A stretch of DNA of 64,000 nt from Rhizorhapis suberifaciens (GTDB lineage: Bacteria > Pseudomonadota > Alphaproteobacteria > Sphingomonadales > Sphingomonadaceae), in the NCBI RefSeq assembly GCF_014200045.1, contig NZ_JACHOV010000007.1:124001-188000 (forward strand), given 5' to 3'. Each line of letters opens with the position of its first letter. Position 1 is the stretch's first letter. Position numbers and translations under genes: made by a program. The notes beneath the pieces were generated by a model that ran no database searches, had not been told where the DNA came from, and was given only the letters and a program-made list of their open reading frames with translations. Below are positions 38,428 through 60,103 of the stretch, one piece after another.

Positions 38428-41400
38428 CTATTGCGGCAATAGCATCGGCGGCCGCCATCCGTTCATGTCCACCTCGTCCCGAACCTTGTACGGCACGCCG
38501 CGCGAGTTGAGGAACAATCGCTCCATTTCCGGCCGGGTAAAGGGCCGCGAGCCAAGACGTCCGAACACCGCCATCTGCCCGCCTGTCTCGTCCACGGCGC
38601 GATCGCGATCCAAGCCCTTTGAGAGCGACACGGCGGGACTTGGCGTTCTCGCCCAGGCGATCAGCTCCGGCTTCGGCGCGGGAGAGAAGCCATAGAAATT
38701 GGGCTGGCTGTCAGGGCTGGTAAGCTGCAAAACTTTAAGGCCATTCCGCCCATCGGCTACATAGGCGAAGAGCGAGGCGTTAGTACTTCCCACTATCACA
38801 TCCTCGACATCATTCATCAGGCCGCCGAATGTCTCCTTCGCATAAATGCTGGGTGCCGCGGGGTTGGTGATATTGATGATCGCCAGCCCGTCCTGCTTCG
38901 CCGCCACATAGGCATAGGTCCGGGCGAGATAGAGGCGTTGAGCATTGGCCAGCGGAATGGCCCCAGAGGAAACCGCGACCGGATTGTCCATCCGTGTCAC
39001 GTCGAACAAGTTCACGCCGTTCCTGTCGGTTATCCAGAGATAGCGGAACTGAAGCGCCGACGCCCGTGCATCCTCCAGAGGACGCACGGCCGTAATGCGA
39101 GGCTTGAGAGGATCGTCGAGGTCAACCACCACCAGTCCCTTGGCCGCCGTAATATAGGCATAATGACCGGCAAGCGTGATGTGCCGCGCGCCGTTCAGCA
39201 CCCCACCCTCATTCCAGGTCAGCGCCCGCCCAAGGAAATTATTGCCGAAGTCGCCGTCGGCCATGGTGTTGATATTGACGAGGATCAAGCCTTCCTCGCT
39301 GTCGGTGATGACAGCATAGTTATAGATGGGGTGGAAAGGCTGCTCCTGATTAATTTTGCGCAGTTCCGGCGTACTGCGCAGCGGATTGATCGGCTGATTG
39401 GTGGCGAGCGCCATACAGGTGGCGTTCTTCGTCTTCACGCGGGTGTCATGACCCAGGGCAGAGAAGGGGGCGGAAACGATCCGTTCTGAAAAGCCCTTAT
39501 TGGCGACCGAAGCCACGTCATAGACGCGGAAGCCGCCTTTGCCCTCGGCAGCGAACATATATTCGCCGCGTAATTGCAGGCAGCCGACCCGGCCCTTCGT
39601 GCCTTGCGTGATATTGGCGAATTCCTCCAGCGGCTGCGTTTCGCCAGACAGCTTCTTGTCGAACCGTTTGCCACGCACCCAGTTCTTCAGCTCCCGCTTA
39701 TTCTGATCGACATGCAGCTTCCAATAATCGGGATAGGCATATTTCTGAAGGTAGGAGCCGATCACCGCCTGCGGCTCTTCCCATTCAGTGACCCGGACCG
39801 CTTCAAAGCCGCCTTCAAGCCCAGTCCAGGCATGCAAACCGACGAAGTTCACATAGTTCGTGCCGAGCAACAGCAACTGCGCCATGATCGCGTTATTGTC
39901 ATTGTCTTCGCTAAGATGGCAGTCGCTGCACTGCTTCGTTTCGGTCTTGCGCACGGTGTGAGGGAAATGGGGAGCAAACGCTTGACTCGAAAAGCCAATG
40001 CCGCTGATGGGCGGCTGTTGGATATAGATGCGCTCTCGGTTGATATTGGTCGAGGAAAGCACCAGCGCGGAGGTCGAGCGGACCGGAGCGATCTGGTTGC
40101 CCTTGGTGGTCATGTGACGCCCAAGCTGGAACATGTCCTCGCGCGCTACCTGTGGGTTGTAGGTTGCGAAATTGCGGGTTTCCTCCCCGTCATAATGGTG
40201 GGTCTTTGTCTTCCAGTTTGCCTCGATGGGCAAGTGACAACCGCCACAGCTCGTGGTCCAACTGAGATGGCAGGTGAAGCAGGCCATCTCCTCATCCTTG
40301 TGGGCGCGGTCAACCTTTGTCACGCCGGGACCGAAGGCATAAACGCCGTTCTCCGCGCTTGACCGGCTCATCAGCTTCGCCCGTGCAGCCTTGGCATTAA
40401 AGTGCGGATTTCCTTTCGTCACGCTGTCCTTAACGAGGCTGACTTCCCATTCCAGATTCGGATCGACGATAGAACGCTGGATCAGCTTGCGGTTGCCTGC
40501 GCCGTCATAAATCCATTCGAAGCGCCTTTTGCCATCGGCGTTACGAAGCAAGGCAAGATTGTTGCCCTGCGGCCGCGCGGCGGGGCCAGAGGTCAGCAAT
40601 GTGGGATAGGCGTCCGCCGTCCCATGACAGTCCTTGCATCCAATCTCGACCGCATTGGCCACTTCGCCATAGATGAGGCCATTGCCATGACTATCCTGCG
40701 CGAAATGGCAGTCGGCGCATTGCAGGCCCTTTTCCGCGTGAATGTCCATCATGTGCACGGTTTTGCCGGGGTTGACACCGGGCGGCACGAACTTGCCCTC
40801 GTCCGCCTTGCGCCATTTTTCCGGATCGTCATTGGCGACGACCTTGCCGTCGGCATCGAGCAGATTGCCCTCACGATCCCGTTTCAGGATCGCCCGGAAA
40901 TTCCACCCATGACCATGATAGTCCGCGAATTGCGTATCTTTCAGCTTTGGGTTGAGGTCATACACATCGCGCAAGAAATCGACGTCCGCCCATTTGCCGC
41001 GTGGAGCCGCACCTTCCGGATTGCGCTCCAGGACCTTGTGGACTTCCTCGGCGGTCGGATATTTCTGCTTTTCCGGCCACATATGCTGCGCGTCGGACTC
41101 ATAGTCCCACATGGTGTAGCCCAGATAGCTGTTCAGGAAGATATTGGGCTGGTGCATATGGCAGTTCATGCACTGGCTGGTCGGGATTGCGCGGGTAAAT
41201 GCGTGACGCAAGGGGTGGCCTCGCTCCCTTATGCCGGGCTGTTTCAACGCTCCGTGGCCTCCGCCATGACCATCGTCCTGCCCGCCCTCCATCTTGTCCT
41301 TGATGGTGGGATCGATAGTGATCGTCTGACCATCGCGGCCATATTGCGCATAGATCAGGCTATGCCGGGGCTCCCGATCATTGGCGTAAATCACATGGCA

Positions 41401-42507
41401 GGAGGTGCAGCCCGAATGGCGATAGTCGCCCGGCTGGTCATTGGTCCCCATGAACCAGGTAAAGGGATCGTTGAGCCGCGTCTTGTGAATGTTGAGCACC
41501 GGAATAGCCACGCGCAGGCCGGTTCCTGGCCCACGGTTGGACTGCTTCAAATCCGGGCGGCCCGGCTCCTCCAGCCGTTGGATCGAGCCCGTGGGATTTG
41601 GCAGCCCGATCTCGGGAAATTGCGTGTTGATGTTACGTCCGCCGCGCTCGAACACCCGGAAAATATCGCCGGGCGGAATAACCTGCCAGGTAGGAAGCGG
41701 ATAAAGTTCGGCCAACGCACCGCGTTTCTTCTGTTCATCGGTTAGGGTTCCGGGCGGCGTTCCTGGAGATATGATCTTCGCCGCCTCTCCCTCTTTTGTG
41801 TAGGCCTCGCCAAAGATGTAGTTTTTGAACGGAACGATGCCATTATTATAAGCAGCGCCGCCCCAAAGCATCGCGCCCGATGCCATTAACGACCGTTCGG
41901 CGGCTTCAATGGTTTCGATATGGCAGGCGCCGCATGCTTCCCGCGCGACGCGGTAATCGCCGGGATTGATGAAGCGTATATATTCGGGCGCTTCCTTGTT
42001 GAGCAGGGCATAGCTGCGTTTCGGATTGGCCGAAGACGGAAAGTGCCAGCTTTCGGGATATTTGGGCAGCACATGCGCCTTGTCGCGTGCAGCCACATAG
42101 GCGGGATGGTCATGCGGCAGGTCGGCGTCGCCTTTGACTGCCGCATTACCGCCATGACAATCGACGCAGCCCAGCTTTACGGCAGGGGTGGCGTGCATGC
42201 TCGGCTGGTCGGTCTGAACATGACAGCTGTAGCAGCCGGACGATTTTACCGCGACATCCTCGTCGGTTTGGCTCATTGGCGCGGGCGGAGTGACGGCATA
42301 GGTGCGCTGAACCGGCTTTTCGTCGTCGCTGGCGAAAGTGGCGGTGAGGGGGATGAGGAGGAAGAGGGCGAGGAGAAACGCTAACCTCGCCCATCCCCAC
42401 TCGTGGAGGCGGGAATCTATCTCCTGCCTTCTCCACAGACGCGAGGTCCGGAGATGGATTCCCGCCTCCGCGGGAATGACGAGGAAAGGGGGACGTCCAA
42501 CCCCCAT
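38428..42507 (-). CDS. Decaheme cytochrome c fused to an LVIVD-type beta-propeller
   Basis: A 1359-residue exported multiheme protein. The first 37 residues are an unusual arginine-rich lead, followed by the hydrophobic signal core (LAFLLALFLLIPLTATFA). Ten CXXCH sites occur at about 92, 114, 192, 367, 446, 597, 624, 743, 754 and 860, most followed by further histidines that could be distal ligands. From about residue 990 to 1320 come LVIVD-type propeller repeats (GGFRVYDVAS, GLVVVDLDDPLKP, GVNLFDVTRMDNP, GLAIINITNPAAP). This domain occurs on surface or secreted proteins. The ATG shares one base with the stop of the barrel gene (TGATG), and no other start exists before the signal core. The likely role is electron transfer across or beyond the outer membrane, inferred from hemes and neighbours. 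Confidence 0.88.
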   Translation of the reverse strand: MGVGRPPFLVIPAEAGIHLRTSRLWRRQEIDSRLHEWGWARLAFLLALFLLIPLTATFASDDEKPVQRTYAVTPPAPMSQTDEDVAVKSSGCYSCHVQTDQPSMHATPAVKLGCVDCHGGNAAVKGDADLPHDHPAYVAARDKAHVLPKYPESWHFPSSANPKRSYALLNKEAPEYIRFINPGDYRVAREACGACHIETIEAAERSLMASGAMLWGGAAYNNGIVPFKNYIFGEAYTKEGEAAKIISPGTPPGTLTDEQKKRGALAELYPLPTWQVIPPGDIFRVFERGGRNINTQFPEIGLPNPTGSIQRLEEPGRPDLKQSNRGPGTGLRVAIPVLNIHKTRLNDPFTWFMGTNDQPGDYRHSGCTSCHVIYANDREPRHSLIYAQYGRDGQTITIDPTIKDKMEGGQDDGHGGGHGALKQPGIRERGHPLRHAFTRAIPTSQCMNCHMHQPNIFLNSYLGYTMWDYESDAQHMWPEKQKYPTAEEVHKVLERNPEGAAPRGKWADVDFLRDVYDLNPKLKDTQFADYHGHGWNFRAILKRDREGNLLDADGKVVANDDPEKWRKADEGKFVPPGVNPGKTVHMMDIHAEKGLQCADCHFAQDSHGNGLIYGEVANAVEIGCKDCHGTADAYPTLLTSGPAARPQGNNLALLRNADGKRRFEWIYDGAGNRKLIQRSIVDPNLEWEVSLVKDSVTKGNPHFNAKAARAKLMSRSSAENGVYAFGPGVTKVDRAHKDEEMACFTCHLSWTTSCGGCHLPIEANWKTKTHHYDGEETRNFATYNPQVAREDMFQLGRHMTTKGNQIAPVRSTSALVLSSTNINRERIYIQQPPISGIGFSSQAFAPHFPHTVRKTETKQCSDCHLSEDNDNNAIMAQLLLLGTNYVNFVGLHAWTGLEGGFEAVRVTEWEEPQAVIGSYLQKYAYPDYWKLHVDQNKRELKNWVRGKRFDKKLSGETQPLEEFANITQGTKGRVGCLQLRGEYMFAAEGKGGFRVYDVASVANKGFSERIVSAPFSALGHDTRVKTKNATCMALATNQPINPLRSTPELRKINQEQPFHPIYNYAVITDSEEGLILVNINTMADGDFGNNFLGRALTWNEGGVLNGARHITLAGHYAYITAAKGLVVVDLDDPLKPRITAVRPLEDARASALQFRYLWITDRNGVNLFDVTRMDNPVAVSSGAIPLANAQRLYLARTYAYVAAKQDGLAIINITNPAAPSIYAKETFGGLMNDVEDVIVGSTNASLFAYVADGRNGLKVLQLTSPDSQPNFYGFSPAPKPELIAWARTPSPAVSLSKGLDRDRAVDETGGQMAVFGRLGSRPFTRPEMERLFLNSRGVPYKVRDEVDMNGWRPPMLLPQ
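42405..42477. repeat. Palindromic repeat (dRS3/REP-like) inside the decaheme coding start
   Basis: A 13-base perfect inverted repeat GGAGGCGGGAATC (42405-42417) and GATTCCCGCCTCC (42457-42469) encloses 39 bases. The right arm also forms an 8-base hairpin ATTCCCGC-4-GCGGGAAT (42458-42477). The ATTCCC-N8-GGGAAT core matches the dRS3 type of interspersed repeat. Read in the gene's frame it encodes VIPAEAGI and runs through without a stop, lengthening the signal peptide N-terminus. Confidence 0.85.
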
Positions 42508-44402
42508 CAGAAACTCACAATCGCGTTGGCGAGGATCGAATAATAAGCGCCGTTCCCCTCCTGATTGTCGAAAAGGTCCCGAAAACCGTCACCCGCGATC
42601 AGTGTGGCGGCGGATAGCCGAAAGACGATGTTCTGCGTCGCTTTGGGCCGCCAGATCGCGGCGGCGGAAAGGTCCCAGCCGATGTCGCCTGGAATGCTGC
42701 CTTCATTACGCAGCGCCTGGAGCACCGCTGTATTTTCAAACCAGAGATGATTGGCATTGCCCGAAAGCCGCAAGGCAGGGGTCAAATCGAAGTCGGCCCC
42801 GGCCCCCAGCAGAATTGTACCCGGGTTATTGAAATTGCTTTGTCCCTGCTCTTTGGACGAGCGCAGACTGTTCAAAATGCCATTGCGGCCATTGATGCTG
42901 ATAGCGCGCCCTCCGCCAGCGAAGGGGATCGTCTGCCGGATCCAATAGCTTGTATCCGCACCGGCAAAGATCGGGTTCTCGAAAATGGCGTCGAAGCCAC
43001 CTTCCGTGTCGTCATGGGGATCGCTGTCGCCGCTGGCATAGAGGCCCGAGGCGCGGAAACGCATCCAATCATGGTCATAGCTGAGTTCAGCGGCCGCGAA
43101 GAATGCGCGGATTTTCGCCTCTTCACTGGTGAAGAAGCTGTTCCGGTCCTTGCCCAGCGCGCCATAGATCGCTCCGGTGACATTGACGCGCCCCACCCGG
43201 CCATCGGCATTGTAGCCCAAATACAGAACGTCATAGTCGCGGCCCCGAAGATCCCCCAGCAGCGCGGGACGAACCGGAAAGCCGTTATCATCGACCTCGA
43301 TCTCGCCACCCTCGCGATTGCGGTTATAGACTGCCGTCAGCTGGCTGGTGAGGCCGGGAAAAGGAAGGTCCTGCCGGTATAGATTGGCGATGAAGACCAA
43401 ATCGTCGCGGGGGCGCTGAACAATGCTGTTGAGTCCGCTGTTGGTGTCTTTCTCCAGCCGCCAGAAAGCCGCCAGATTGAACTGAAAACGGTTATTGTCG
43501 CGATTGCCGAAAAAGCGGATGCCAAGCTGCTGATCGTTGAACAGGAAGCCACGAAAGTCGCTTTGAAACGGCTGAATCCCCACACGGATGGACTCAAAAT
43601 CATAGCGGTCGGACGTGTTGCGCAGGTGATAGTCGATAAACGCTTCCTGCACGCCCAGAAAGTGGTCGGTCCGGTGGCTGGGTCTGGATGGCTTGACCGA
43701 AAGCACCCGCCGTTCCGGCACGTTCACATGATTGATATTGTATGCGAGCGTCAGCCGGTACTCGATCTCCGGGGGCTTGAAGGCGGTCGCCCCCTTGATC
43801 AGCGCGACACCGCCGATGAAAGTTTGCGAGAGCACATAGCTCGCATCTTTGCCAAATACGTCCAGGCTCCCGGGGCGCTCTGTCGTCTGAACGCCTACAG
43901 GAATGGGAAAAGTACGCGGCTCAATCACTGTGTCGGACACAGCGTTCACGACCAGAAACCAGTCATCGCCTTTGATTGACAGCCAGGGGACCTTCGCGCG
44001 GTCGATCGGGCGGTCGCCCTTTAGCGTGTTCTGGTTATAGGGATCGAACCAGCGCTCCTTCACCAGCCCCAGCGATTCTATGAGACGCCAGCGGTCGGGG
44101 ATGGGAAATTGGTCTGTTGGAAAGGCTTCGGGAGGCGGCGGACGCACCGCCCCTTCATTTTCCTGCGTTACCCGCTCGGGCAGGGAACGTTGCCGACCTG
44201 GACGCATGCGCCCTTCGATCAAGGCGTCGTCGGCCTTGCTTTGGGGTGGTTGCTCGCCATCAACCAAAACTGTTTCAGCCGACATTTCCTGCCGTTGGTC
44301 CGGCGCGAATGTGTCTCTACTCCGCTCGACGGGAACGGTGACGGGGTCAGTGCTCCCTTGAGCCGCCGCTAAAGCCAGAGCGGATAGTATCAATATGGTC
44401 AC
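42507..44402 (-). CDS. Predicted outer-membrane beta-barrel (porin-like) of the cytochrome operon
   Basis: A 631-residue protein with a short signal peptide (MTILILSALALAAAQG), a polar proline-rich region to about residue 110, and then many alternating amphipathic strands up to a C-terminal Phe (ILANAIVSF), the outer-membrane assembly signal. Strands such as YRLTLAYNINHVNV and FQFNLAAFWRLEK and aromatic girdles point to a large barrel of at least 16 strands. No CXXCH or CXXC is present. It begins with GTG overlapping the preceding stop (GTGA) and ends one base into the decaheme ATG. In porin-cytochrome conduits a barrel surrounds a multiheme cytochrome; this is the natural candidate here. Not obviously similar to MtrB or OmbB. 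Confidence 0.75.
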   Translation of the reverse strand: MTILILSALALAAAQGSTDPVTVPVERSRDTFAPDQRQEMSAETVLVDGEQPPQSKADDALIEGRMRPGRQRSLPERVTQENEGAVRPPPPEAFPTDQFPIPDRWRLIESLGLVKERWFDPYNQNTLKGDRPIDRAKVPWLSIKGDDWFLVVNAVSDTVIEPRTFPIPVGVQTTERPGSLDVFGKDASYVLSQTFIGGVALIKGATAFKPPEIEYRLTLAYNINHVNVPERRVLSVKPSRPSHRTDHFLGVQEAFIDYHLRNTSDRYDFESIRVGIQPFQSDFRGFLFNDQQLGIRFFGNRDNNRFQFNLAAFWRLEKDTNSGLNSIVQRPRDDLVFIANLYRQDLPFPGLTSQLTAVYNRNREGGEIEVDDNGFPVRPALLGDLRGRDYDVLYLGYNADGRVGRVNVTGAIYGALGKDRNSFFTSEEAKIRAFFAAAELSYDHDWMRFRASGLYASGDSDPHDDTEGGFDAIFENPIFAGADTSYWIRQTIPFAGGGRAISINGRNGILNSLRSSKEQGQSNFNNPGTILLGAGADFDLTPALRLSGNANHLWFENTAVLQALRNEGSIPGDIGWDLSAAAIWRPKATQNIVFRLSAATLIAGDGFRDLFDNQEGNGAYYSILANAIVSF

Positions 44403-46360
44403 AGCCCCTCACACACATTCTGCTGGGAGGTGCCGATAAAAGGCGCGAAGGGACAATTGATGTAACGCAGTCGAACGCCCGCGCCCACATCGACCACGAT
44501 CTGATCCGCCCGGATTCCCATTGGCGCATTGCCGATGTCGCCCACTCGAATTCCACCTTCATGGGTGCCAAGAAAACTGATCATGTCGTCCTGGTCGATG
44601 CCGTCGCCCGACACGCCGATCGCGCCCACGAGCTGGTTGCCGCGATAAATCGGGACTGAACCCGGAAAGATCTGAATGCCATTGGCCAACCGGTTCTGCC
44701 CTGGCGTCGCCGTACAGGCTTGCGGCGTGTCGGTCGCGCTCGCGCCTGCGACATAATCGAGGTGCGCGCCCAAATTGCCAATAATGAGCGCCGACTGCAG
44801 GCCGGTCGAAAATGGATTGAACTGTGCGATGGGACGGGAAAGCGGCCCGTGCGGTTGGCCTACTTCTCCATCCGGGAAATAGGGGCGGGAAAGGTTGCCA
44901 CCCGCCCGGTCCGAAAAGGCGTAGGTCCCGGTCAGCGCGGTCTGATCGTCAAGGAAAGTCCGCGTCGCCTGTACGAAGCCCTGCACATCGCTGCTGGGAT
45001 TGGCCAGTAGGTCGCTTGCCGCATTGGGCCCGGAAAAAAAGGCCGCCGTGCGCGCTTTTTGTAGCGACACGTCAATGCCAAAAATGGGAGCGTCGGGTGA
45101 ACGGATGATACCCAACACGGCTCCATTAGTGTCGACAATGGAAATGCTGACCTGAGCTCGGCTGTCTAGCGGCTGACGGATTTGGGCCCGCGCCCGACCC
45201 ATGACTCCGAACGCCTCTTCAAGCACCGCCCGCACCTCTGCTGCCGAGAGCGGCTGGGCCACTGCATCCGTTCCTGCGCGAATGGGATAGCGATTGCTTC
45301 CCATACCGTCGGTCAGAACAAAGGCGTCGCGGTCGCCGAATTCGGCGGACGTCGAGGCGCGTACGCCCGAGGCTTCACTACCATAAGGAGTGCCAGCGGC
45401 TATGGCCGGCGCAGGGCTGCCGAAATAACCGGTGACCGCCACCAGGGACCCGGATGTTGCCGCATAACTGGCATTACCATTGCTCGTCAGGCCCGAATAG
45501 CTCGCATCGGAATAGCGCAGCGATGTACCGTCGACGGTAATATGATTGGCTCGGATGGTCTCCGGCGCTTCAAAGCCCAATGTTCCTGCAAGCGCGATGA
45601 ACTCTTCGGCGTCACTGTCAACATCGGTCACATTACGGTCGATGCCATAATCGCCATCGGCCATCACGCCAATGCCGCCCACCAACACGCCATTCTTGTA
45701 AAGCGGAAACCCGCCCGGATCACCCGCAAGGCCGAGCGGCGAGCGCTTGGGCCCAATCAAAGCGCCCGCGCCACTGCTGATATAGCGGGTGGCAAGATCA
45801 GAGCAGGGAAGTTGACTGAACTGCACACCGAACAAGGGGCCGCTTTCAAGCCCAACCGTCCCTGGGGCTGGCGGGAAATGTTCCTGCAGGATCATGCTGG
45901 CGGTACGCGTGGAAAAGGCATTGCCGCCGCTGGACAAATAAGCGCCGGTTATTGCCTTGGCGATTGCCCCGGCCTCTGCGGGGAAAGAGACGTTCTGCAC
46001 GTCCATGTTTACGCCATTGGGGGCAGCGCTGGCCGTCGCTGTCGCGGCCGCGCCCGGCATGCGGAACACGGCGAGCACATTTCCTACCCGGTCAGTCACT
46101 GCAATGACGGCGGGCAGATTGCGCGCCAGGGCCTCAGCGGCGGAGTTGGCAAGGACCTGTTCAACATCGGCAATGGAAAGCGCTTCCTGCGCCGGTACGG
46201 TATAGAGTTGAGACGTCGTGGGGGTGGGCGCAGGCGAACCGCCGCCGCCTTCCGACCCCTCTCCACCACAAGAGGAAAGGACCAAGGCCGCGCCGGCGAG
46301 GAAGGAGGTCAGCCAACCCCTGACCGCTTTCTGTCCTGCAAAGTTGCTCATTTTTTTCAT
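44399..46360 (-). CDS. Lipoprotein with two GlcG/HbpS-like heme-binding domains
   Basis: A 653-residue protein: lipoprotein signal with lipobox LSSC at about residue 30, a Gly/Ser/Pro-rich tether, and two copies of the GlcG/HbpS (DUF336) fold. Copy one (about 55-290) has LSIADVEQVLANSAAEA, VIAVTDRVGNVLAVFRM and GVLVGGIGVMADGDYGID. Copy two (about 370-640) has LSAAEVRAVLEEAFGVM, SISIVDTNGAVLGIIR and NQLVGAIGVSGDGIDQDD. HbpS of Streptomyces binds heme and responds to redox stress; other members take glycolate-related ligands. The ATG overlaps the cytochrome stop (ATGA), with AAGGGCG upstream. Inside a cytochrome operon a role in heme handling or in holding the complex is plausible but unproven. 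Confidence 0.82.
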   Translation of the reverse strand: MKKMSNFAGQKAVRGWLTSFLAGAALVLSSCGGEGSEGGGGSPAPTPTTSQLYTVPAQEALSIADVEQVLANSAAEALARNLPAVIAVTDRVGNVLAVFRMPGAAATATASAAPNGVNMDVQNVSFPAEAGAIAKAITGAYLSSGGNAFSTRTASMILQEHFPPAPGTVGLESGPLFGVQFSQLPCSDLATRYISSGAGALIGPKRSPLGLAGDPGGFPLYKNGVLVGGIGVMADGDYGIDRNVTDVDSDAEEFIALAGTLGFEAPETIRANHITVDGTSLRYSDASYSGLTSNGNASYAATSGSLVAVTGYFGSPAPAIAAGTPYGSEASGVRASTSAEFGDRDAFVLTDGMGSNRYPIRAGTDAVAQPLSAAEVRAVLEEAFGVMGRARAQIRQPLDSRAQVSISIVDTNGAVLGIIRSPDAPIFGIDVSLQKARTAAFFSGPNAASDLLANPSSDVQGFVQATRTFLDDQTALTGTYAFSDRAGGNLSRPYFPDGEVGQPHGPLSRPIAQFNPFSTGLQSALIIGNLGAHLDYVAGASATDTPQACTATPGQNRLANGIQIFPGSVPIYRGNQLVGAIGVSGDGIDQDDMISFLGTHEGGIRVGDIGNAPMGIRADQIVVDVGAGVRLRYINCPFAPFIGTSQQNVCEGL

Positions 46361-47763
46361 CTAAGCGCCCTTATGCTTGCCGCCGCGCTGGCCAAGGCCG
46401 CCCGGAACTCGCCTGGACGATAAGCATTGGGATCTTTCACGGCCGTATAGGCGCGATTTACATTGGCCCGGATGCCTGCCGCCGCGCCCAGGGTGACTTG
46501 ACCCGATTTGACCAGCGCGTTGAGCAGAGTGTCGACCGCCATTACCGCCTGCACGGACCCTTCATAGTCGGTAAAGCGGGGAGAAATGGCGTTGCCCGCC
46601 AGCGCCTCGATGATGGCGAAGGTCTTGTCTCTGCCGAACGTCGCTGAGCTGAATGCCTCTGTCAGCGCCGCAGCGGTCTGTCGCAACTGGCTCGCCGCGC
46701 CCACCGCCGAAGCGCGATCCTTGGCCAAAGCTGCATGAAAAGCACGGCTATCGGTGTCAAAGCGCGAGGCCAGCGCCGGAGCCGCCACTTTCGCCGCGGC
46801 CGAAAGCATGATCATATTCTCGTCATTATAGGGCGGCATGCCGCCTGGTATCGGCCGTCCGGGATTGTCAACAAACGTCCGTGTCGCCTTGTCGCCGTCA
46901 TAGATCGGCCGGTGGCAGCTATGGCAGTCGAAGAAGTAGAATTCCGGGAATACGCCGTCATTACCAAGCTCATGGTCGGTATAAAGCGAAAGCGAGCGCT
47001 GGAGCGCGATCGTCTGCCCTACCGCCCACATGCGGAGATTGTCCGATCGCCCCTTCCGACGGATATAATCGGCATCCTCGTCATGGTGCTGCTGCAGCGT
47101 TGAGAAAAGATCGAGCTCAAAGCTGATACGGGGATGCCCGGCCGCCATGATCCTGTGGGTTACGAACTGGCCTCCTTTGGAGCTGCCGAAATGACAATCG
47201 AGGCAGGCAGATGCCCGGGCTCTTGGGTTTTCAAGAGGGGTCATGCCTCGCTCAACATTTGCGGCGTGGGTAGCGCCAACCGCATAATGGCTCGATATCC
47301 ATCCAGATGCGCCGCCATGGCAGCCTTCGCATCCAACCCCGTCGGACAGCTGAAAACGTGCGCCGCGCTTTCCGGCCGGTGCAGGGTCGGCGTGGCAGCC
47401 AAGGCACATGGGCGAGGAACTGGCGTCGCCAATGCCCAGATTGCGCGCGATTTCGCGGCTGCGGCCGCTGGAGAGGACAGCGAAGGCCCGGCTGTGTGCG
47501 CCCCCCGGCGTGGAAGGCTCCTGCCATCGCATCAGTTCATCCTGACGCACGATCTTGCCATCGGCCTCCATTCGGCCATGGCAAGTCGTTCCCGCACAGG
47601 AGGCGACACCAAGGTGAATATTGCCTTCATTCGACGTCGCGGCAACGACCGGGGCTACCGAGGGCGCCGCGCCTGTGAAGACAATGGCCGCCGCCAATAC
47701 CAAGAGGACACAGGCCATCGCCCAGATCCCGCGATGGTTTTCAGCGTCGCTCCCCGATGGCAT
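46357..47763 (-). CDS. Pentaheme cytochrome c with one CX4CH site (c554-like)
   Basis: A 468-residue exported cytochrome. A signal or anchor helix (about 15-42) is followed by heme sites CAGTTCH (56-62, a CX4CH instead of CXXCH), CLGCH (120), CEGCH (145), CLDCH (187) and CHSCH (280). The rest, to 468, is an alanine-rich helical region without hemes. Layout and spacing recall the cytochrome c554 family of multiheme electron carriers. The start at 47763 has a good AGGGGGA site, so the long frame upstream is discounted. It is the first gene of the operon and may link the quinone pool or periplasm to the later decaheme protein. Confidence 0.83.
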   Translation of the reverse strand: MPSGSDAENHRGIWAMACVLLVLAAAIVFTGAAPSVAPVVAATSNEGNIHLGVASCAGTTCHGRMEADGKIVRQDELMRWQEPSTPGGAHSRAFAVLSSGRSREIARNLGIGDASSSPMCLGCHADPAPAGKRGARFQLSDGVGCEGCHGGASGWISSHYAVGATHAANVERGMTPLENPRARASACLDCHFGSSKGGQFVTHRIMAAGHPRISFELDLFSTLQQHHDEDADYIRRKGRSDNLRMWAVGQTIALQRSLSLYTDHELGNDGVFPEFYFFDCHSCHRPIYDGDKATRTFVDNPGRPIPGGMPPYNDENMIMLSAAAKVAAPALASRFDTDSRAFHAALAKDRASAVGAASQLRQTAAALTEAFSSATFGRDKTFAIIEALAGNAISPRFTDYEGSVQAVMAVDTLLNALVKSGQVTLGAAAGIRANVNRAYTAVKDPNAYRPGEFRAALASAAASIRALR

Positions 47764-47869: not shown

Positions 47870-50800
47870 TTAATGCTGTGCACAACCGCTGGTTTCCGCG
47901 GCTCCATCGCAGCTCGGCATCCACAGATCGTCATTGCCCGCACCCGTTACAGGCTCGTCGATCAGAGGCGGATAGCCGAAAGGCTGGAAGTCCTTCAACT
48001 CAACGACAATCGTCGGGAAAAGGTCGGATGGGGTGCCGGTGTCAGCCGGATCAAGCGGCTCTCTGATCTCATCATGCGGGGGAGGTGTCAAACCGTCATC
48101 AATGCCCGTCACCGCGCCACATAACGACGGATTAGCGATGAAACAGCCATTGATCGTCGAACGCGGATCGAAACCTCCGCTGACGCTGGTCGCCGGTATA
48201 ACGTCGGCACCGCTCACAAAACTGCCGCTGCTTCCGACCAGGCGGCCATTTATGGCGATGCGCGTTCGGTCGGTTTCGGCGCTTATGATGATGTTGTTCG
48301 CTGTAAAGCCACGCCGATCCGCTATGGCGTCTGAAGCACCAAGATTTTGAATATAAAGCCCATTGGCGATGTCGAAGCTGATGGTGCCGGCCCTTAAAGC
48401 TCCTTCATCAAGCACCACGCCATCGTTCAAGGCGAGCCTGTTATTGATCATACCCATGGTGGCCGCATTCCCGACATCGGTGATTGCGGCGGCGGTTGCG
48501 ACAATCACATCGTCTGAAGCAAGCCGCAGGAGGCCGGTAAGCCCGCCATTAACGTTTCGCATATCGATCGAGCCTAGACCGGCGATAACCTCCAGAGTGT
48601 CACCTGCGGTCAGGTCAAACAGATTGCCGGCGTTGAAATCGGTAAGCCTAACCGCACCAACGACCCGCAGCTTGCCCGGCGTCGAAATGGACAGGATGCC
48701 GCTGGGGCCCAAATTACCGCCGCTTCCCGCTCCCAATGTGAAGCCATCGACTATCAGATCGGCGGTGCTGGACGCCGCCAGCCGCGGTCCGGTGATGCTG
48801 ATCGCGTTGGAAAAGAGCCGCAGCATTTCGGCGGCCGACAGGCTGTAGCCGCTGCTATTGTCCAAGCCCCCCATATAGGTCGGGCGACTGTCGTCATTAT
48901 TCGCGAGTTCGAGCGAAACCGTCCCGATCCTGGATCCAATTTGCGCGCCCGAACCGATGACGATGTCGGATGAAGCTATGGAGATGCCATTGCCGGAAAG
49001 GAGCCCGTTTACGGTTGCGGTACCCAGGGCGTCGATGTCGATGACAGGGGCAGAGACGGCATCAAGCGTAACGTTACCCCGGCTGGTATAGTAGAAACCG
49101 GAGCTGGCGTTGGCGGCGGAACCAAGGCCCATTGCCGTCAGGTTTCCGGTCGCAAGACTGCCCCCGGCGAAGCTTGCGGTGTCACTGATTTCCATACGTC
49201 CGGAACGAATGGTCATTCCTGAGCCGCTGACATCGAGGGTCAAACTGCCAAGCGCGCGTGCGCCGGTTGCGGCAGCGGTATCGGCGTTGGTGACACGCAC
49301 GAAGCCGCCCGTGCCGTTCCCAACCGTTCCGGAGAGGCCGCTGCCGCCCGTACCAGCCGCGCCGCCAATACCTTCAGATTCCAGGGTCAGCGCCCCAACA
49401 GTATAGCTCGCATCTTGTGCGTCGAATGACGCCAAACCTCCAAGGCCATCACCACCAGAGCCGCTATTGCCGAAGCCGAAACTATCGCCGCCGATGCCGC
49501 CCTGACCATTGGCCAAGATTTCCAGGGAGGTTGTGGTCAGGCTGGCTCCGGCGTTGAGATCAACTTGCGCGGTTCCGCCGAACCCAGCGCCTCCCGACGT
49601 CGCGTTGTCGTCGGTCACCGCGTCGGTGTTGCCGCCCCGGCCAGACGCATCGACACTGATGTCGCCCGCGCTCAGGGTTCCATCCGCCAGAATCAATTGC
49701 GATGTGCCACCTGTGCCGACTCCGCCGGGGCTCATGAGGTTACCGGCGGAGCTGGGAGCGCGTGCGAAACCACCGGTTCCGATGGCCGAAATCTCCAACA
49801 AACCGACAATGTCGGCGAAACCGCCATTCAGGTTGAATATTGCCTGGCCGCCAAATCCACTGCCCGCGATAAAGGCCGCAGGACCGGGGCTTTCTCCCGC
49901 TTCTCCGCCAAGGCCGTCCGCTGTCATCGAGATCGACTGAGCGCTGAGCAAGCCACTCAGCACATCGATACGTACCGAACCGCCCCGACCGGTTCCGCCG
50001 ACGCCCTCGCCAAAATATTCGCCCGGCATGCCTATGCCATCGGCGCTGATGCTAAGGTCGCCAAACGTCATTGCGGCGCTGTTCGAGCCTCCGGTCAGTA
50101 ATTCCAGCAGCACCGATCCGCCCGTGCCATTTCCAGCCGTTCCGCCAGTCAGTTCGCTGCCGCCATAACCGTTGGCGGAAATGAAAATCGGTCCGTCCGA
50201 CGCGAAAATACCATCCTGCGCGGTTATTACGATATCGCCGCCGGTGCCGTTGCCGCCCACCGGCCCTCGCCCTCCCTCAGCCTGGGCGGTGATCTCGCAA
50301 TTGCCGTTCGCGCATCCGGTGAGGATGAACTGACCGAGATTGCTTGTGGAAATGTTGACGTCGCCACCGTTGGCAGCGCCCGCGATACCGCCCGGCTCTG
50401 CATTCCCGCCGCTGGCGCGCGCGAAAATGGACATGGTGTCGAGGTTAAGCGTACCGCCATTCACGCTGATCTGGGCCGTGCCGCCAGCATTGCTGCCGCC
50501 ATTGATGGGAATCGGCAATGAAGAAAATTGCGTACCCGCTGAGACGTCCATTTGCAGGTCGCCAGCGCTGACGGTGCCGCCCGTCATTGCGATGCGGACA
50601 GTGCCGCCGGTGGCATCCCCTGAACTCCCCTCCCCTACACCGGCCGTGGCGGTAGAGAATAATTGTATATTGGCAGCCGATATATCGCCGCCATCGGTGC
50701 GGATTTCCGAAGTGCCGCCCGTCGCGTTGCCTCCGGTCCCGCCGGTTGCAAAATTATCCAGCCCAGTCGCGCTGCTGCCAAGCGTCAGCGCGCCGCCAAC

Positions 50801-52075
50801 GGTGACTTGGCCGGTGCCATTGGCAAAGAGGGTGGAAATCCCGCCCACTCCAGCAAATCCAGCATCCAGCGACAGATCGCCGGTAACATCGATGGTTTCG
50901 CCGCTATCGACCCCGGCGGTAATGGATGTAACCGCCTTGAAGTTCGCATTTCCACCGAAGCTAATGGTGCCAGAGCTAGTCGGATTGACGGTCGTGGAGC
51001 CTGACGCCCGGCCATCGACATTCGAAACAAAGCTGCTGTTGCCGATCGAAATATTGGCATTGGCGCTGGTGGTGCTATTCCGGATGCCCAACGACTGGCC
51101 GCCGAGAATATCATGTCCAGCCGACAAGATTACCGCGCTGTCCTGCGTCGCCGCAGACGCTGCCGGTGAATAACCGAAATTTCCCGTAAGCAGCATTGTA
51201 AGGGCGCTGTTCTTCGGAACCGCCGCGAGGAAAGCCCGCTGCGGACCGGCGTCTGGGGTGAGGTTCGTCGTGCCGGTGTGGATGACACCATTGGCGTTGG
51301 TCGTACCAGTCCCTATCGAAATGTCGAACAGACCGTTATTTATAGTGATGTTCGCGGCTTCTGCCCCGACATAGGCGACAGAGCCATTGACATTCACCGT
51401 GCCTCTCTGTTCGACCAATGGAGCCACGAGCGCCACATAACTCCCCGCCGCCAACGCGTTGATCTGAGCGCCCGGCTGAATCGTGACGCGAGAAGTACTT
51501 CCGGAAGTGCCCGCGAAGCGGATCTCGCCGCCAGCGCCAAACAAGCCAGGCCCCGATGTGTCGATCGCATTGGTTGTAAGGACAAGCGATCCCACGTCAA
51601 ATACCGCCGTTGGTCCGGCAATGATGCCGCCGGGAGAATAGAACCAGACGGCGCCGCCTGGACCATTGCCCAGCTGCGATTGAACCGTGCCGTTGAATGC
51701 GACCGGGCGAAGCGTAGGATTACCGCCGCCATCCACCGGCAGGATACGATTGAGAACGGTAAAATTGGTCGATCCGGAAGGGTCCTGAAAAATCGCTGTA
51801 GAGCCATTGGGCAGGAAGTTGACCGTCCCTGTACCCGCCGTGTCGGAAGGCTGCCAATCGATCACCGCCTGGCTGCTGCCAAGGGTGATGGTGTCGACGG
51901 TGCTTCCCTGACTGATGCTGACGGAACCGCTGACAATCGTAGGAGTGCCCTGGAAAGCCTGACCCTGCGCCTGCGGCGCCTTGGCCAGCGTTGAAAGCGC
52001 GAGGGCGAGAGCGCAGCCATTGAGCAGCGCAGCAGCCTTGCGGTTGCGGGACTGGAAAAGAGCGGACCGCATCAT
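47870..52075 (-). CDS. Two-partner-secretion exoprotein, filamentous hemagglutinin type (TpsA)
   Basis: A 1401-residue secreted protein: signal peptide (KAAALLNGCALALALSTLAKAPQAQGQ), a haemagglutination-activity (TPS) domain to about residue 300 with INQ-like turns (IDWQPSD, GGIIAGPTA, FDVGSLVLTT), then a long glycine/threonine-rich repeat region with recurrent GGxGxGG and NGTGG turns typical of a parallel beta-helix. The last 90 residues are acidic and proline-rich and carry five cysteines in total from about 1315 on. It is exported by the adjacent TpsB and may act as an adhesin or surface matrix. Its ATG overlaps the transporter stop (TAATG), with GGAGG in front. Confidence 0.88.
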   Translation of the reverse strand: MMRSALFQSRNRKAAALLNGCALALALSTLAKAPQAQGQAFQGTPTIVSGSVSISQGSTVDTITLGSSQAVIDWQPSDTAGTGTVNFLPNGSTAIFQDPSGSTNFTVLNRILPVDGGGNPTLRPVAFNGTVQSQLGNGPGGAVWFYSPGGIIAGPTAVFDVGSLVLTTNAIDTSGPGLFGAGGEIRFAGTSGSTSRVTIQPGAQINALAAGSYVALVAPLVEQRGTVNVNGSVAYVGAEAANITINNGLFDISIGTGTTNANGVIHTGTTNLTPDAGPQRAFLAAVPKNSALTMLLTGNFGYSPAASAATQDSAVILSAGHDILGGQSLGIRNSTTSANANISIGNSSFVSNVDGRASGSTTVNPTSSGTISFGGNANFKAVTSITAGVDSGETIDVTGDLSLDAGFAGVGGISTLFANGTGQVTVGGALTLGSSATGLDNFATGGTGGNATGGTSEIRTDGGDISAANIQLFSTATAGVGEGSSGDATGGTVRIAMTGGTVSAGDLQMDVSAGTQFSSLPIPINGGSNAGGTAQISVNGGTLNLDTMSIFARASGGNAEPGGIAGAANGGDVNISTSNLGQFILTGCANGNCEITAQAEGGRGPVGGNGTGGDIVITAQDGIFASDGPIFISANGYGGSELTGGTAGNGTGGSVLLELLTGGSNSAAMTFGDLSISADGIGMPGEYFGEGVGGTGRGGSVRIDVLSGLLSAQSISMTADGLGGEAGESPGPAAFIAGSGFGGQAIFNLNGGFADIVGLLEISAIGTGGFARAPSSAGNLMSPGGVGTGGTSQLILADGTLSAGDISVDASGRGGNTDAVTDDNATSGGAGFGGTAQVDLNAGASLTTTSLEILANGQGGIGGDSFGFGNSGSGGDGLGGLASFDAQDASYTVGALTLESEGIGGAAGTGGSGLSGTVGNGTGGFVRVTNADTAAATGARALGSLTLDVSGSGMTIRSGRMEISDTASFAGGSLATGNLTAMGLGSAANASSGFYYTSRGNVTLDAVSAPVIDIDALGTATVNGLLSGNGISIASSDIVIGSGAQIGSRIGTVSLELANNDDSRPTYMGGLDNSSGYSLSAAEMLRLFSNAISITGPRLAASSTADLIVDGFTLGAGSGGNLGPSGILSISTPGKLRVVGAVRLTDFNAGNLFDLTAGDTLEVIAGLGSIDMRNVNGGLTGLLRLASDDVIVATAAAITDVGNAATMGMINNRLALNDGVVLDEGALRAGTISFDIANGLYIQNLGASDAIADRRGFTANNIIISAETDRTRIAINGRLVGSSGSFVSGADVIPATSVSGGFDPRSTINGCFIANPSLCGAVTGIDDGLTPPPHDEIREPLDPADTGTPSDLFPTIVVELKDFQPFGYPPLIDEPVTGAGNDDLWMPSCDGAAETSGCAQH

Positions 52076-53808
52076 TATTGCCTCCACGGAACAAGCTTGG
52101 TCGTCACGGACAGCAACAGCCGGGGGTCACCCCGCCTGTTCAAAAATCCTGTCCGTTCCATCGGAACGGCCAATGTCAGGTCCACCCGCGCGTGATTGCC
52201 CCAGGCGCCACGGATGCCTCCCCCGGCAGAGTAGAGCTTTTGCGGATCAAGTCCGGCAAAGGCACTGTCCTCGTTCCAGATCCAGCCAGCGTCGAAAAAG
52301 GCGAAGGGCTGGAAAGCAAGGGCATTGACGCCCTTGGGCATGATGCTGCCATAGCGGACCTCCGCCTGCAGGCCGATGCCGCTGTCGCCAATGATCGTGC
52401 CTGGATCATAGCCGCGGCCGAAACTGTAATTGCCCGCGGACATCTCCTCATAGCTGAGCAGCGGATCGGGGCTGTATTGGAAACGGGGAGACAGGCTGAA
52501 AGTCAGCTTTGGCGTGGGGCGATATTCGCCATAGGCCGTCGCTCTCAATACGAGCGCGGTGGGATCAGCCTCTGGTTTGGCGGTCAGGCTTCCCGGCTTG
52601 CTGGCATCGAAAATCGACAATCCGTGCCGCGCCTCGACCGAACCACCGGCACGCCACCGTGGCTCGGCCCCGCTATAGCCGATAGTGCTGCCCAAACTGG
52701 CGCTGTCGATGATGTCATAATCCAGCCGGGCATAGAGAACGCGAAGCTTGTCCTTGCTCAGCCGAATTGGGCCGAAATCGACTTTCTGGTCGACGAATTC
52801 AAAGCCCAGCGTACCGAGAAGGTTCTGCGACTGACGCCGGATCAGTGGATAACTGCCCGCCAAGCCTGCGATCAGGGTCTGCGATTTAATATCCAGGCCG
52901 ATATCCGGATTGGTCCAGGCGTAGGTGAGATCGCCGGTCAGGCGAAGACCGTCATGACCAACAAAAAAGCTGTGCCCCGCCTGCAGCACGGTCTGTTCGG
53001 ACACATCGGCGGTGTTGAAGATACTGAACGTCGTCATGTCGCCCAGGCCAGTGAGGTCATTGACCTGCACCCGCGCCAATCCGCCCCAGCGGCCAGTGTC
53101 GTTGGAGCCGTAATTCTGGACATTCGCATCAACCTGAAACCGCTGCCTTGTGACCAGAACTTCGCCGACCACCTCACCAGGAGCAGTATTGGCGGGCCGA
53201 AGAGTAAGACGGACATCATAGCCGGGAAGGTCCCCGGCAAGCAGTAAGTGACGCTCCGCCTCATGGATGTTGAAGAGCGGGCGGTCCTTGATCGCCTCCA
53301 GATGCGCTGCGATCAGCTTTTCGCCACGGCCGGCATCGCCACGCACTTGCACGCCAACAAGTTTCGCGAGCAGCACGTCAAAGCGTACGACGCCCCCTTT
53401 CTCGATACGTTGGGGCGGAACCTGGATAGCCGCCAGATACCCCCCCTCCCGAAGGATGGTCGCGGCGCTGTCCCGGATGTCGCACAGCGCCGCTATCGGG
53501 ATCTCCCGCCCCGTCTGTCCTTCCCAGGCCGGGCGCAGCATCTCCGGGGAAAGGCCCTGAAGCCCTTCGAACTGGACTGCCGATAGAGTGACCGTCATCT
53601 TGGCATATTGAGGATCGGCCAGCGGGCATGGGGCGCGTTCGATGTCACCTTCCACCGTTACCCGCGCCGGAGGCAGCGGAGCGGCCAGGGGCGGACGTCC
53701 ACGCTCGATTTCTTCGCGCGTGGGAGCGCCGCTTGTCTGCGCCATGAGAGTTGTCGGCAATAACGCGGGGCCCAGCAGAACACAGGCCAGTGAACGGGCA
53801 AAGCCCAT
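52075..53808 (-). CDS. TpsB transporter (ShlB/FhaC/HecB family)
   Basis: A 577-residue outer-membrane translocator: signal peptide (MGFARSLACVLLGPALLPTTLMAQ), a proline-rich segment, POTRA domains (about 55-215; the second contains PLFNIHEAERHLLLAGDLPG) and a 16-strand barrel ending in LVPWRQ. It exports the adjacent exoprotein. The motif VRYGSIMPKGVNALAFQPFAFFDAGW near the end is typical. The start at 53808 has AGGGGAA upstream; the longer frame from 53892 is not used. A 207-base gap separates it from the FecR gene, so it may have its own promoter or be read through. Confidence 0.9.
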   Translation of the reverse strand: MGFARSLACVLLGPALLPTTLMAQTSGAPTREEIERGRPPLAAPLPPARVTVEGDIERAPCPLADPQYAKMTVTLSAVQFEGLQGLSPEMLRPAWEGQTGREIPIAALCDIRDSAATILREGGYLAAIQVPPQRIEKGGVVRFDVLLAKLVGVQVRGDAGRGEKLIAAHLEAIKDRPLFNIHEAERHLLLAGDLPGYDVRLTLRPANTAPGEVVGEVLVTRQRFQVDANVQNYGSNDTGRWGGLARVQVNDLTGLGDMTTFSIFNTADVSEQTVLQAGHSFFVGHDGLRLTGDLTYAWTNPDIGLDIKSQTLIAGLAGSYPLIRRQSQNLLGTLGFEFVDQKVDFGPIRLSKDKLRVLYARLDYDIIDSASLGSTIGYSGAEPRWRAGGSVEARHGLSIFDASKPGSLTAKPEADPTALVLRATAYGEYRPTPKLTFSLSPRFQYSPDPLLSYEEMSAGNYSFGRGYDPGTIIGDSGIGLQAEVRYGSIMPKGVNALAFQPFAFFDAGWIWNEDSAFAGLDPQKLYSAGGGIRGAWGNHARVDLTLAVPMERTGFLNRRGDPRLLLSVTTKLVPWRQ

Positions 53809-54015
53809 AAAAATTCCCCTTTCGTCCGCCGCATTTTTGCGGCCGGCTCTATGCCCCAAACCTACCCCAGAAGGAGCCGGATGATTGATCACGCCATCAT
53901 TATCTGGTCATGGAAGTACCGCTTTAGCACGGCTTTTTTGCTTCGGCCCTGCTATCAGCGAAGCGGTTTTCATGCAAGCAAACAGCCTGAATTCCGTCGC
54001 TTTTTCATGTGACCC

Positions 54016-54792
54016 CTACCCCTCAGGAATGGGCTGCGCATCGGGTAGCGCGACGGTATCGACCAAAAGGTTCAGTTGCGCCTCGCAGCCGCGGCTGATC
54101 AGCATCGATGCCATGCTTTCAAGCCCCTCGCTTTGCGGCCCCAGTACCGCAAAGCTGATCTTGACCGGCTTGTCGGGACCGCCCCAGCTTAAATGATAGC
54201 TGCCCCCATCCGTCACCGGCAATGCGGCGGGCCAGGCGGCACGAAACTGTCCTTTTTCGAAAGCGATGGTGGCGCTGAGTCCGTTTTTATCGTCTCGCGC
54301 CGTCACCAACAGAGCCTGCGTCAAATCCGGCCGCCAAAGCTGGACATTGGCGGGATCAGGCACGCAGACCTTTGAACTTTGGCTGATATCCACATACCAA
54401 AGATTGGGACTGCGCGGCATTTTTCCTGCGTCAGCGCCGCCTCTCACCGCGCCGGTACGGGCACGCCGAATCCGCTGCGTTCCAAGAAGGCCGGCCAGGC
54501 TGTTGCGGGTGTCGCCGGCGGTGCTGGAAGCAGCGCTGGTGTTGAAGTTGCCAGGGCCCTTCAAGGTGCGCGTACCGCGTCCGTCGAGCACCGTCAGCAC
54601 ATCTCCCGCCTTTAGCGCGATCATGCTGTTATCCGCGATCTTCCTGCCCGGCGGATAGCTGCCCGCCGAAGGTCCGGCGGCCTTCACCACGATAGTCTCA
54701 GCCAGTACCGCACCGCTGGGAAAGGCAAGCAGGGCCACGCCGAAGACAAATGGTTTCAATGAGTTGATTCGGAACATCTTAGTCGAGAACAT
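54016..54792 (-). CDS. FecR-domain exported protein
   Basis: A 258-residue protein: N-terminal signal anchor (FVFGVALLAFPSGAVLA), then a FecR-type domain (IVVKAAGPSAGSYPPGRKI, ALKAGDVLTVLDGRGTRTLKGPG, where a PG-ended strand closes the fold) and a second beta-rich half of unknown type with two cysteines. FecR domains in non-iron settings sit in the periplasm next to large surface proteins. The ATG at 54792, with GGAGG five bases upstream, overlaps the cyclase gene by 14 bases; an ATG at 54777 is an alternative. Not a FecIR iron regulator: no sigma factor is beside it. Confidence 0.78.
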   Translation of the reverse strand: MFSTKMFRINSLKPFVFGVALLAFPSGAVLAETIVVKAAGPSAGSYPPGRKIADNSMIALKAGDVLTVLDGRGTRTLKGPGNFNTSAASSTAGDTRNSLAGLLGTQRIRRARTGAVRGGADAGKMPRSPNLWYVDISQSSKVCVPDPANVQLWRPDLTQALLVTARDDKNGLSATIAFEKGQFRAAWPAALPVTDGGSYHLSWGGPDKPVKISFAVLGPQSEGLESMASMLISRGCEAQLNLLVDTVALPDAQPIPEG

Positions 54793-59700: not shown

Positions 59701-59841
59701 GCTTTGCGCCTGGCAAAGCACGCCGCCGCCGCTACCGAGGCGGAAGCTGTCGGCCAAGCTTGGCCTTATGTCCTGCGCCCAGAGCGGGCTGGCGAATGAA
59801 GCGGAAGCCATAAAGGCCGCATGAACCAGGCGCAGTCGCAC
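56755..59841 (-). CDS. Exported TPR-CHAT protein (caspase-like protease family)
   Basis: A 1028-residue protein. A signal peptide (MRLRLVHAAFMASASFASPLWAQ) precedes a long helical tetratricopeptide-like region (about 200-600) with recurring Ala-Leu helices such as EAAEFFDTLQDRLGD and EARSMLERALGGA. A CHAT domain fills the C-terminus; its catalytic pair is His871 (LHFATHG) and Cys920 (LSACDTAG). CHAT proteins are caspase-fold proteases, usually cytoplasmic. The signal indicates this one is periplasmic or anchored. I use the GTG at 59841 with GGGGGA five bases upstream. It is the first gene of the group and is coupled to the cyclase. Substrate unknown; the TpsA exoprotein is a natural suspect. 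Confidence 0.88.
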   Translation of the reverse strand: MRLRLVHAAFMASASFASPLWAQDIRPSLADSFRLGSGGGVLCQAQSQSSDPAVQGMFDRTWMLVCRDAAQPVGQLYALRNGGGDLQARLIASRKQDVSCDPPARTQIAGLGDVTSRQCRLPGAKLGYVVHEYRAGKVTYAVQGFESYDSALLLALRTIVADKPVDGQIAIATSGSDDPAAFARLQAGTLDAQTSLAEGYRRNNSGNYAEAAEFFDTLQDRLGDNDLASVPFAEREARGHEYLINQALQLSNLSEFDQADALFAQASKIATRDRVQQRLRRNFLAMHMLNQRRYGDAAAILDRPLTAAPKANPTPDAAVELTPQLAAEINSGVASKTLSLSQDVRLTADERAAIIDAQAGQLRGTLLRLQGKPKEARSMLERALGGAIAVRGGRVSSISRLRAQLLAEIALTYEAEGDAGAADDRLRQALKLLATQYPETAAMNGARARLASFLVRQNRNREALTLYHDIVASTAANGSSVTGIANQLQPYFNVLAAEIPSRPELVADMFLASQLLVRPGAADTLEVLSRELQAGDNEAARLFRQSVSLSRDIERARIELSQLALGGQDASAVPLIESARQKIADLSRQQVETQAALAAYPQYRAVSRETVTLDALRATLKSGEAYMKLARVGGSLFALYVDGTGATGYRLPISSAELERKVDVLRETISAVVAGAQTTYPFDVELARSLYLDLFAPVDTRLSSVRHLIFEPDGAMLRLPPNLLISDQAGVDAYLKRIEDPNADEFDFRDIQWLGRNRAISTTVSVRGFRDARLAGASRGTRNYLGLGQNAPVPHATPAVMTRPVSGTPEAQCQWPLDEWNRPIAATELRQAANLLGPAGTEIMTDVAFTDSAIMARTDLRDYRVLHFATHGLVTPPHSGCPARPALLTSFGGGNSDGLLNFSEIFDLKLDADLVILSACDTAGQASREATRAAGIGTGGGTALDGLVRAFIGAGGRAIVASHWPAPDDYNATERLIGGLFGHGTGESIGIALQKAQLPLMDSAETSHPFYWSGFAIIGDGARPLLAQ

Positions 59842-60103
59842 AATGTCCCCCATATGCTTTGCCGGAGCCCGCCGGTACGGCGCTTGCTATTTTCGTTTGA
59901 GGCCCCGGTCGGTGCTACAGTCTCGCGCCTTGCCGAGCAAGAGCTTAGGGACCCAAACCGTAACGGCAATCGGCGCAGAACCACTTATATCAAGGCGGAA
60001 AAAAACGGCATCTCCAGCGTTGGCCGCATGGTAAGCAGGAACTCTGACTATGGATTTTGGCAACTATCCTTAGGCTGAGTTTCGTCAATATAAGGTGAGT
60101 TCG

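Follow-up and report, generated by a model that had tools for sequence, protein, structure and literature searches.

In a window of 64,000 nucleotides from Rhizorhapis suberifaciens (contig NZ_JACHOV010000007.1, positions 124,001 to 188,000), we analyzed four overlapping minus-strand genes, PENTA, GLC, BAR, and DECA (window positions 38428-47763), and found that they probably supply the periplasmic and outer-membrane part of a trans-envelope electron-transfer chain of seven proteins, which would be fed by NAD(P)H, gated by cyclic nucleotide, and directed toward electron export. Sequence evidence shows which components are present, what cofactor motifs they carry, how the genes are linked, and that they occur together across genomes. 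The seven-gene chain is apparently previously undescribed, as searches of the open-access literature (LVIVD with multiheme; cyclic-nucleotide/FHA/ferredoxin/cytochrome; RefSeq product names) found no earlier description, and the public records examined carry generic names only ("hypothetical protein," "multiheme c-type cytochrome").

Conserved cofactor motifs of the four-gene set

The initial annotation of this DNA described overlapping minus-strand genes for a pentaheme cytochrome, a lipoprotein, a β-barrel, and a decaheme protein with an LVIVD propeller, and junction reading together with profile searches confirmed this layout (Table 1). PENTA and GLC join by ATGA, GLC and BAR by GTGA, and BAR and DECA by TGATG. 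DECA contains 10 CXXCH motifs and two LVIVD repeats above the Pfam cut-off, while PENTA has four CXXCH motifs, one CX4CH motif, and a Cytochrome_C554 match of 6e-10. GLC carries the lipobox LVLSSC, matches PF03928 (HbpS-like) at 9.7e-23 over three stretches, and has no CXXCH. BAR ends in ...IVSF, and no Pfam family, porin families included, matched it at E values up to 0.1. None of the 10 DECA heme motifs is lost in 18 homologues, nor any of the five (4+1) in 19 homologues of PENTA, which argues that the four-gene set is not a product of chance; the lipobox Cys31 of GLC is likewise invariant in 18 sequences. The heme motifs and signal sequences would place both DECA and PENTA in the periplasm.

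In profile searches, the best solved relative of GLC was EfgA rather than HbpS, and neither DECA nor BAR returned a solved relative. DECA was also considered as an MtrC/MtrA relative, and this was rejected because the MtrC domain match stayed below threshold and the profile search gave no solved relative. A palindromic repeat of the FLVIPAEAGIH type lies in frame at about codons 2 to 40 of DECA (window 42390-42500, minus strand) and is missing from the congener locus L051; because it is inserted ahead of the signal peptide, the latter lies further inside than the first ATG implies. Loci L036 and L051 show further repeat-like insertions at gene starts.

A probable link to NAD(P)H through an inner half

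Neighbor clustering revealed that, outside the sphingomonads, three further genes (cl4, cl6, and cl3) lie ahead of GLC-BAR-DECA, and this cytoplasmic and inner-membrane half, together with the cyclic-nucleotide link, had been missed by the initial annotation. In the R. suberifaciens genome, cl4-cl6-cl3 and a SpdA/CpdA-like cyclic-nucleotide phosphodiesterase are located on another contig (C3), where cl4 and cl6 join by an ATGA-type overlap. In many sphingomonads the three genes are convergent and downstream of the operon (43 of the 63 whose flanks are long enough). The other alphaproteobacterial families have the order cl4-cl6-cl3-GLC-BAR-DECA with PENTA usually adjacent, and in those loci of a second class that extend far enough the order is the same and PENTA usually comes next. 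Seven non-sphingomonad loci also carry, between cl3 and GLC, a small secreted protein of about 150 to 200 residues (cluster 21; L183:11008-11667, L184:4077-4607) that matches no family.

The cl4 protein, of about 800 residues, combines a pyridine-nucleotide-disulphide oxidoreductase (YpdA/TrxB-like), two cyclic-nucleotide-binding domains, and DmsB-like 4Fe-4S domains, and by motif it holds an NAD(P)H/FAD part plus four 4Fe-4S clusters. Comparison of 62 cl4 sequences shows little or no variation at the FAD and NAD(P) glycines, at 16 cysteines, or at the Glu and Arg of either cyclic-nucleotide cassette. The cl6 product is a membrane protein of about 280 residues with five His invariant in 50 sequences; we assign it as a b-type cytochrome, its b561 similarity being sub-threshold. 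The cl3 product, of about 600 residues, is an inner-membrane decaheme protein with an FHA domain, one membrane span, and 10 hemes.

Searches with PF13435 and PF14537 recovered only PENTA, DECA, and cl3 as multiheme cytochromes of the genome. No match was found in it to PF03264, which would mark a NapC/CymA-type quinol feed, or to TIGR03509, the MtrB/PioB barrel, BAR included. With three multiheme proteins from this two-family census and neither NapC nor MtrB/PioB, a path through cl4, cl6, cl3, PENTA, and DECA is the natural reading.

Co-occurrence and distribution

DECA is present in 22 of 99 relatives, all 22 being members of the family, and it was found in none of the other families of the order. 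cl4 was found in 21 of these 22 and in 0 of the 77 relatives lacking DECA (Fisher p 1.4e-20, not corrected for kinship), the sole exception being a genome that is 67% complete. Proximity does not account for this association, because in nine Sphingomonadaceae genomes the inner and outer halves are separated by about 25 kb or more or sit on different contigs. Among 385 genomes of the class, cl4 accompanies DECA in 29 of 29 and occurs without it in seven more.

The prediction that the four genes stay together also held, since the order PENTA-GLC-BAR-DECA is kept in 18/18 Sphingomonadaceae loci fetched with full flanks, even though the flanks differ. The scattering that would have spoken against a common system was not observed: GLC-BAR-DECA are together almost everywhere, although PENTA changes place. 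A scan of genome contigs gave at least 594 confirmed DECA relatives, and the 80 of them that were listed are almost all from sphingomonads (Sphingobium, Sphingomonas, Novosphingobium, Erythrobacter, Porphyrobacter, Sphingopyxis, Blastomonas, and others). DECA occurs in 29 of 385 genomes class-wide, in 11 of 398 phylum-wide, and in 12 of 321 of the second class. In a tree of 53 DECA proteins, the second class groups in a single clade, and a separate clade holds the sphingomonads plus two close rows from outside them, which indicates that spread is mostly vertical. A conjugative plasmid of 959 kb in Sphingobium herbicidovorans (L208, NZ_CP020539.1) carries both halves together, DECA is present in 13 plasmid records, and one second-class genome (G937) has two operon copies (L226 and L227).

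The seven class genomes with cl4 but not DECA were inspected one by one. At L235 the contig stops at GLC, L234 has cl4 alone, and two (L233 and L236) have no more than cl4-cl6-cl3-PENTA. The remaining three, L237-L239, place PENTA next to a different 5-heme cytochrome, which weakly resembles ExtKL, and a different barrel-like protein that is about 535 residues long and ends in Phe (L237:3347-8461, L238:11747-16522, L239:4347-9309); cl4 and cl3 are close by in L237 and L239, and L238 has cl4 within the same region of its contig. This set resembles an alternative outer module attached to the same inner chain, as would be expected if outer modules were interchangeable.

Proposed electron path and its regulation

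We propose that electrons from NAD(P)H would enter at cl4, passing through FAD and then the four 4Fe-4S clusters, and that the b hemes of cl6 would take them across the inner membrane. The periplasmic decaheme of cl3 would receive them, PENTA would act as relay, and DECA would be the end of the path, held at the outer membrane by BAR and the lipoprotein GLC. There, DECA may reduce a compound that enters through the 18-strand BAR or meets the complex at it, and GLC may bind this compound. The two cyclic-nucleotide-binding domains of cl4 would gate the flow, with the signal made by the CHASE2 cyclase and removed by the SpdA/CpdA-like phosphodiesterase. The outward direction is proposed on account of the NAD(P)H-type flavoprotein at the cytoplasmic end, and for the same reason the insoluble electron donor suggested by the initial annotation appears less likely than electron export.

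Gating by cyclic nucleotide is a reasonable inference from the cyclic-nucleotide domains in cl4, the phosphodiesterase beside cl4, and the CHASE2 cyclase upstream of the operon, which is the sole CHASE2 protein in the genome and the likely source of the nucleotide. The cyclase (cluster 9) belongs to a nearly unbroken overlapping chain of genes that runs through window 47870-59853 into PENTA. Of 79 sphingomonad loci, 39 have genes of this set upstream of the operon, and in another family (L186) relatives of FhaC, the FHA exoprotein, CHASE2, and CHAT flank the operon again.

Table 1. Window positions of the outer-module genes and of the genes upstream of them
Feature	Position	Strand	Description
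DECA	38428..42507	-	1359 aa; decaheme c-type cytochrome, C-terminal LVIVD beta-propeller; Sec signal peptide, lipobox absent
BAR	42507..44402	-	Outer-membrane beta-barrel, about 18 strands, C-terminal Phe
GLC	44399..46360	-	Lipoprotein, two HbpS/GlcG-like domains
PENTA	46357..47763	-	Pentaheme cytochrome, C554-like core
FHA-like two-partner-secretion exoprotein	47870..52087	-	Cluster 16; common upstream neighbor, adjoins PENTA in several Sphingobium/Novosphingobium loci
ShlB/FhaC-type secretion partner	52075..53892	-	PF03865 3.6e-23
Protein of unknown function	54016..54870	-	Cluster 15; conserved beside CHASE2 cyclase
CHASE2 sensor + class III nucleotide cyclase	54779..56809	-	Cluster 9, near operon in 30 loci
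CHAT-TPR protein	56755..59853	-	PF12770 1e-48; end of overlapping upstream chain

Barrel model and alternative explanations

A barrel able to sheath a cytochrome would be expected to have 26-28 strands, and conduit barrels of the MtrB kind have 26, whereas BAR, modeled with AlphaFold2 (AF2) from 20 sequences at a predicted local distance difference test (pLDDT) of 56 (strands mostly 65-85), has 18. AlgE and the OprD-family (Occ) channels ranked first among its fold neighbors (Foldseek 2e-11; VIA Z about 17 over 280-350 residues), and MtrB/PioB structures are absent from the neighbors listed. Because of this strand number, we favor a small-substrate pore or a docking platform over a sheath; the model does not support an MtrCAB-style cytochrome-in-barrel conduit, which we keep as a less likely rival. 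The initial annotation had proposed a barrel and cytochrome conduit and had named an unrelated porin as the model that would speak against it, and the AlgE/OprD-family outcome, at a pLDDT of only 56, is a model of that type. Its wider idea, a separately evolved outer-membrane electron pathway, survives as membership in an electron-transfer chain and is not supported where it has the barrel sheathing a cytochrome.

A true extracellular conduit, with DECA or part of it inside BAR and the hemes or the propeller exposed to insoluble or bulky acceptors as in MtrCAB and the Geobacter Ext and Omb-Oma-Omc sets, is possible but clearly less likely than the proposed chain. The named host genera are mostly aerobic, no lipoprotein cytochrome is found in the set, and the lumen of the modeled BAR looks too narrow for an MtrA-like protein; GLC, BAR, and DECA are nonetheless almost never apart. 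Two of the three elements of Geobacter conduits (PMC6148476) have counterparts here, the multiheme periplasmic c-type cytochrome in PENTA and DECA by motifs and signal sequences, and the integral outer-membrane β protein in BAR by model, fold match, and C-terminal Phe, with modest confidence. As to the third, a cofactor-bearing outer-membrane lipoprotein, GLC shows a lipobox Cys and HbpS-like domains without CXXCH and could take this place, and extHIJKL of Geobacter is called a putative conduit though its lipoprotein is a non-cytochrome (PMC6148476).

We regard as rather unlikely a periplasmic or outer-membrane reductase, serving detoxification or nutrition, that acts on a specific soluble compound such as selenite or tellurite with BAR as its uptake pore, a reading that is the proposed chain with its substrate fixed. 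BAR resembles substrate-selective porins, and the best NCBIfam match of DECA is ExtM (NF040943) of the Geobacter selenite/tellurite operon, a local match of 1.1e-16 that reaches 60.3 bits against a cut-off of 800. Loss of ExtI lowers selenite and tellurite reduction and not Fe(III) reduction (PMC5877670), which fits such a function. In the sphingomonad Erythromonas ursincola, the purified tellurite reductase has subunits of 62 and 55 kDa with GroEL as nearest mass-spectrometry match (PMC5488091); we rejected its identity with the present system, since these subunit data do not point to the operon. Inward flow, in which DECA and PENTA would oxidize an extracellular or periplasmic donor and electrons would reach NAD(P)+ via cl4, agrees with the insoluble donor proposed initially and with a cofactor set that is reversible in principle, but NAD(P)+ reduction requires a low-potential donor and the operon encodes no link to a terminal oxidase, leaving it very improbable. 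Slimmer still is the chance of heme or iron handling, with GLC binding or degrading heme and the cytochromes serving as heme sinks or as a ferric reductase for iron uptake. GLC does have HbpS-like domains, and HbpS family members bind heme; however, its closeness to EfgA speaks against this, and neither a TonB receptor nor a heme oxygenase was recognized among the recurring neighbors read or scanned.

Several points weigh against the proposed chain itself. The direction of electrons, the order of carriers, the location of DECA, the substrate, and the cyclic-nucleotide control are the parts that we infer. Signal peptides and the lipobox were assigned by eye, the multiheme census covered two Pfam families, and the DECA model has a pLDDT of 42, with an unusable heme part and the propeller as the sole confidently modeled portion. 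The CHASE2 and phosphodiesterase link comes from neighborhood evidence, nearly all of it in Sphingomonadaceae. Moreover, L233:7731-14088 and L236:6964-14438 carry cl4-cl6-cl3 and PENTA with no outer module nearby, so that the chain can serve something else.

Comparison with known systems

Most of the outer-membrane electron conduits known so far belong to anaerobic metal reducers and phototrophic iron oxidizers. The proposed NAD(P)H-to-outer-membrane chain, by contrast, is conserved in hundreds of bacteria from groups that are mostly aerobic (Sphingobium, Novosphingobium, Erythrobacter, and others). As a tentative extension, which we hold as conceivable rather than probable, it may represent a separately evolved extracellular electron transfer of mostly aerobic Proteobacteria, powered by NAD(P)H, independent of quinone and NapC, switched by CHASE2 and cyclic nucleotide, and equipped with interchangeable outer modules (GLC-BAR-DECA, or a 5-heme cytochrome with a barrel). 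The small number of multiheme proteins in this genome makes it a convenient setting in which to ask what purpose an outer-membrane electron outlet serves in an aerobe and whether cyclic nucleotides gate it.

Like MtrCAB and PioAB, the present set joins a barrel with multiheme c-type cytochromes at the outer membrane, whereas the MtrB/PioB barrel, a lipoprotein cytochrome, and a genomic NapC-type quinol dehydrogenase are missing. No DmsE/MtrA-family decaheme was found among the window proteins; DECA had no TIGR03508 match up to E 0.1, and PENTA scored 13.6 bits with it, below the cut-off of 192. The view that this redox system is separate from MtrCAB/PioAB is upheld by the lack of MtrB/PioB, MtrA/DmsE, and NapC family matches. 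With the 18-strand AlgE/OprD (Occ) channels, BAR shares the barrel fold, in a model of modest confidence, but only about 10-13% identity, and it differs in its cytochrome neighbors.

Among described systems, the Geobacter extHIJKLMNOPQS cluster for selenite and tellurite (PMC5877670, PMC6148476) comes closest; it likewise combines a non-cytochrome lipoprotein, a porin-like barrel, a pentaheme, a larger multiheme, a second decaheme, an Fe-S protein, and a b-type cytochrome, in addition to the local similarity of DECA to ExtM. No component of the present chain reached an Ext family cut-off, and no NCBIfam porin model matched BAR except weakly DESULF_POR1 (E 0.0057). We suggest that the chain may work like the Ext system but do not assign it to that family. 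The Ext lipoprotein is a rhodanese, whereas GLC is an HbpS-domain lipoprotein; the Ext Fe-S partner is a Rieske protein, whereas cl4 is an NAD(P)H/FAD/cyclic-nucleotide protein; and the LVIVD propeller of DECA and the FHA-domain cytochrome cl3 set the present chain further apart. DmsB-type 4Fe-4S subunits, YpdA/TrxB flavoproteins, and CRP-like cyclic-nucleotide domains are each recognizable as a domain of cl4, but here they are all fused in one protein of about 800 residues, which is linked with a cytochrome b and with multiheme cytochromes. Trans-envelope multiheme electron transfer is a known kind of system, and it is the cytoplasmic end that is unusual here.

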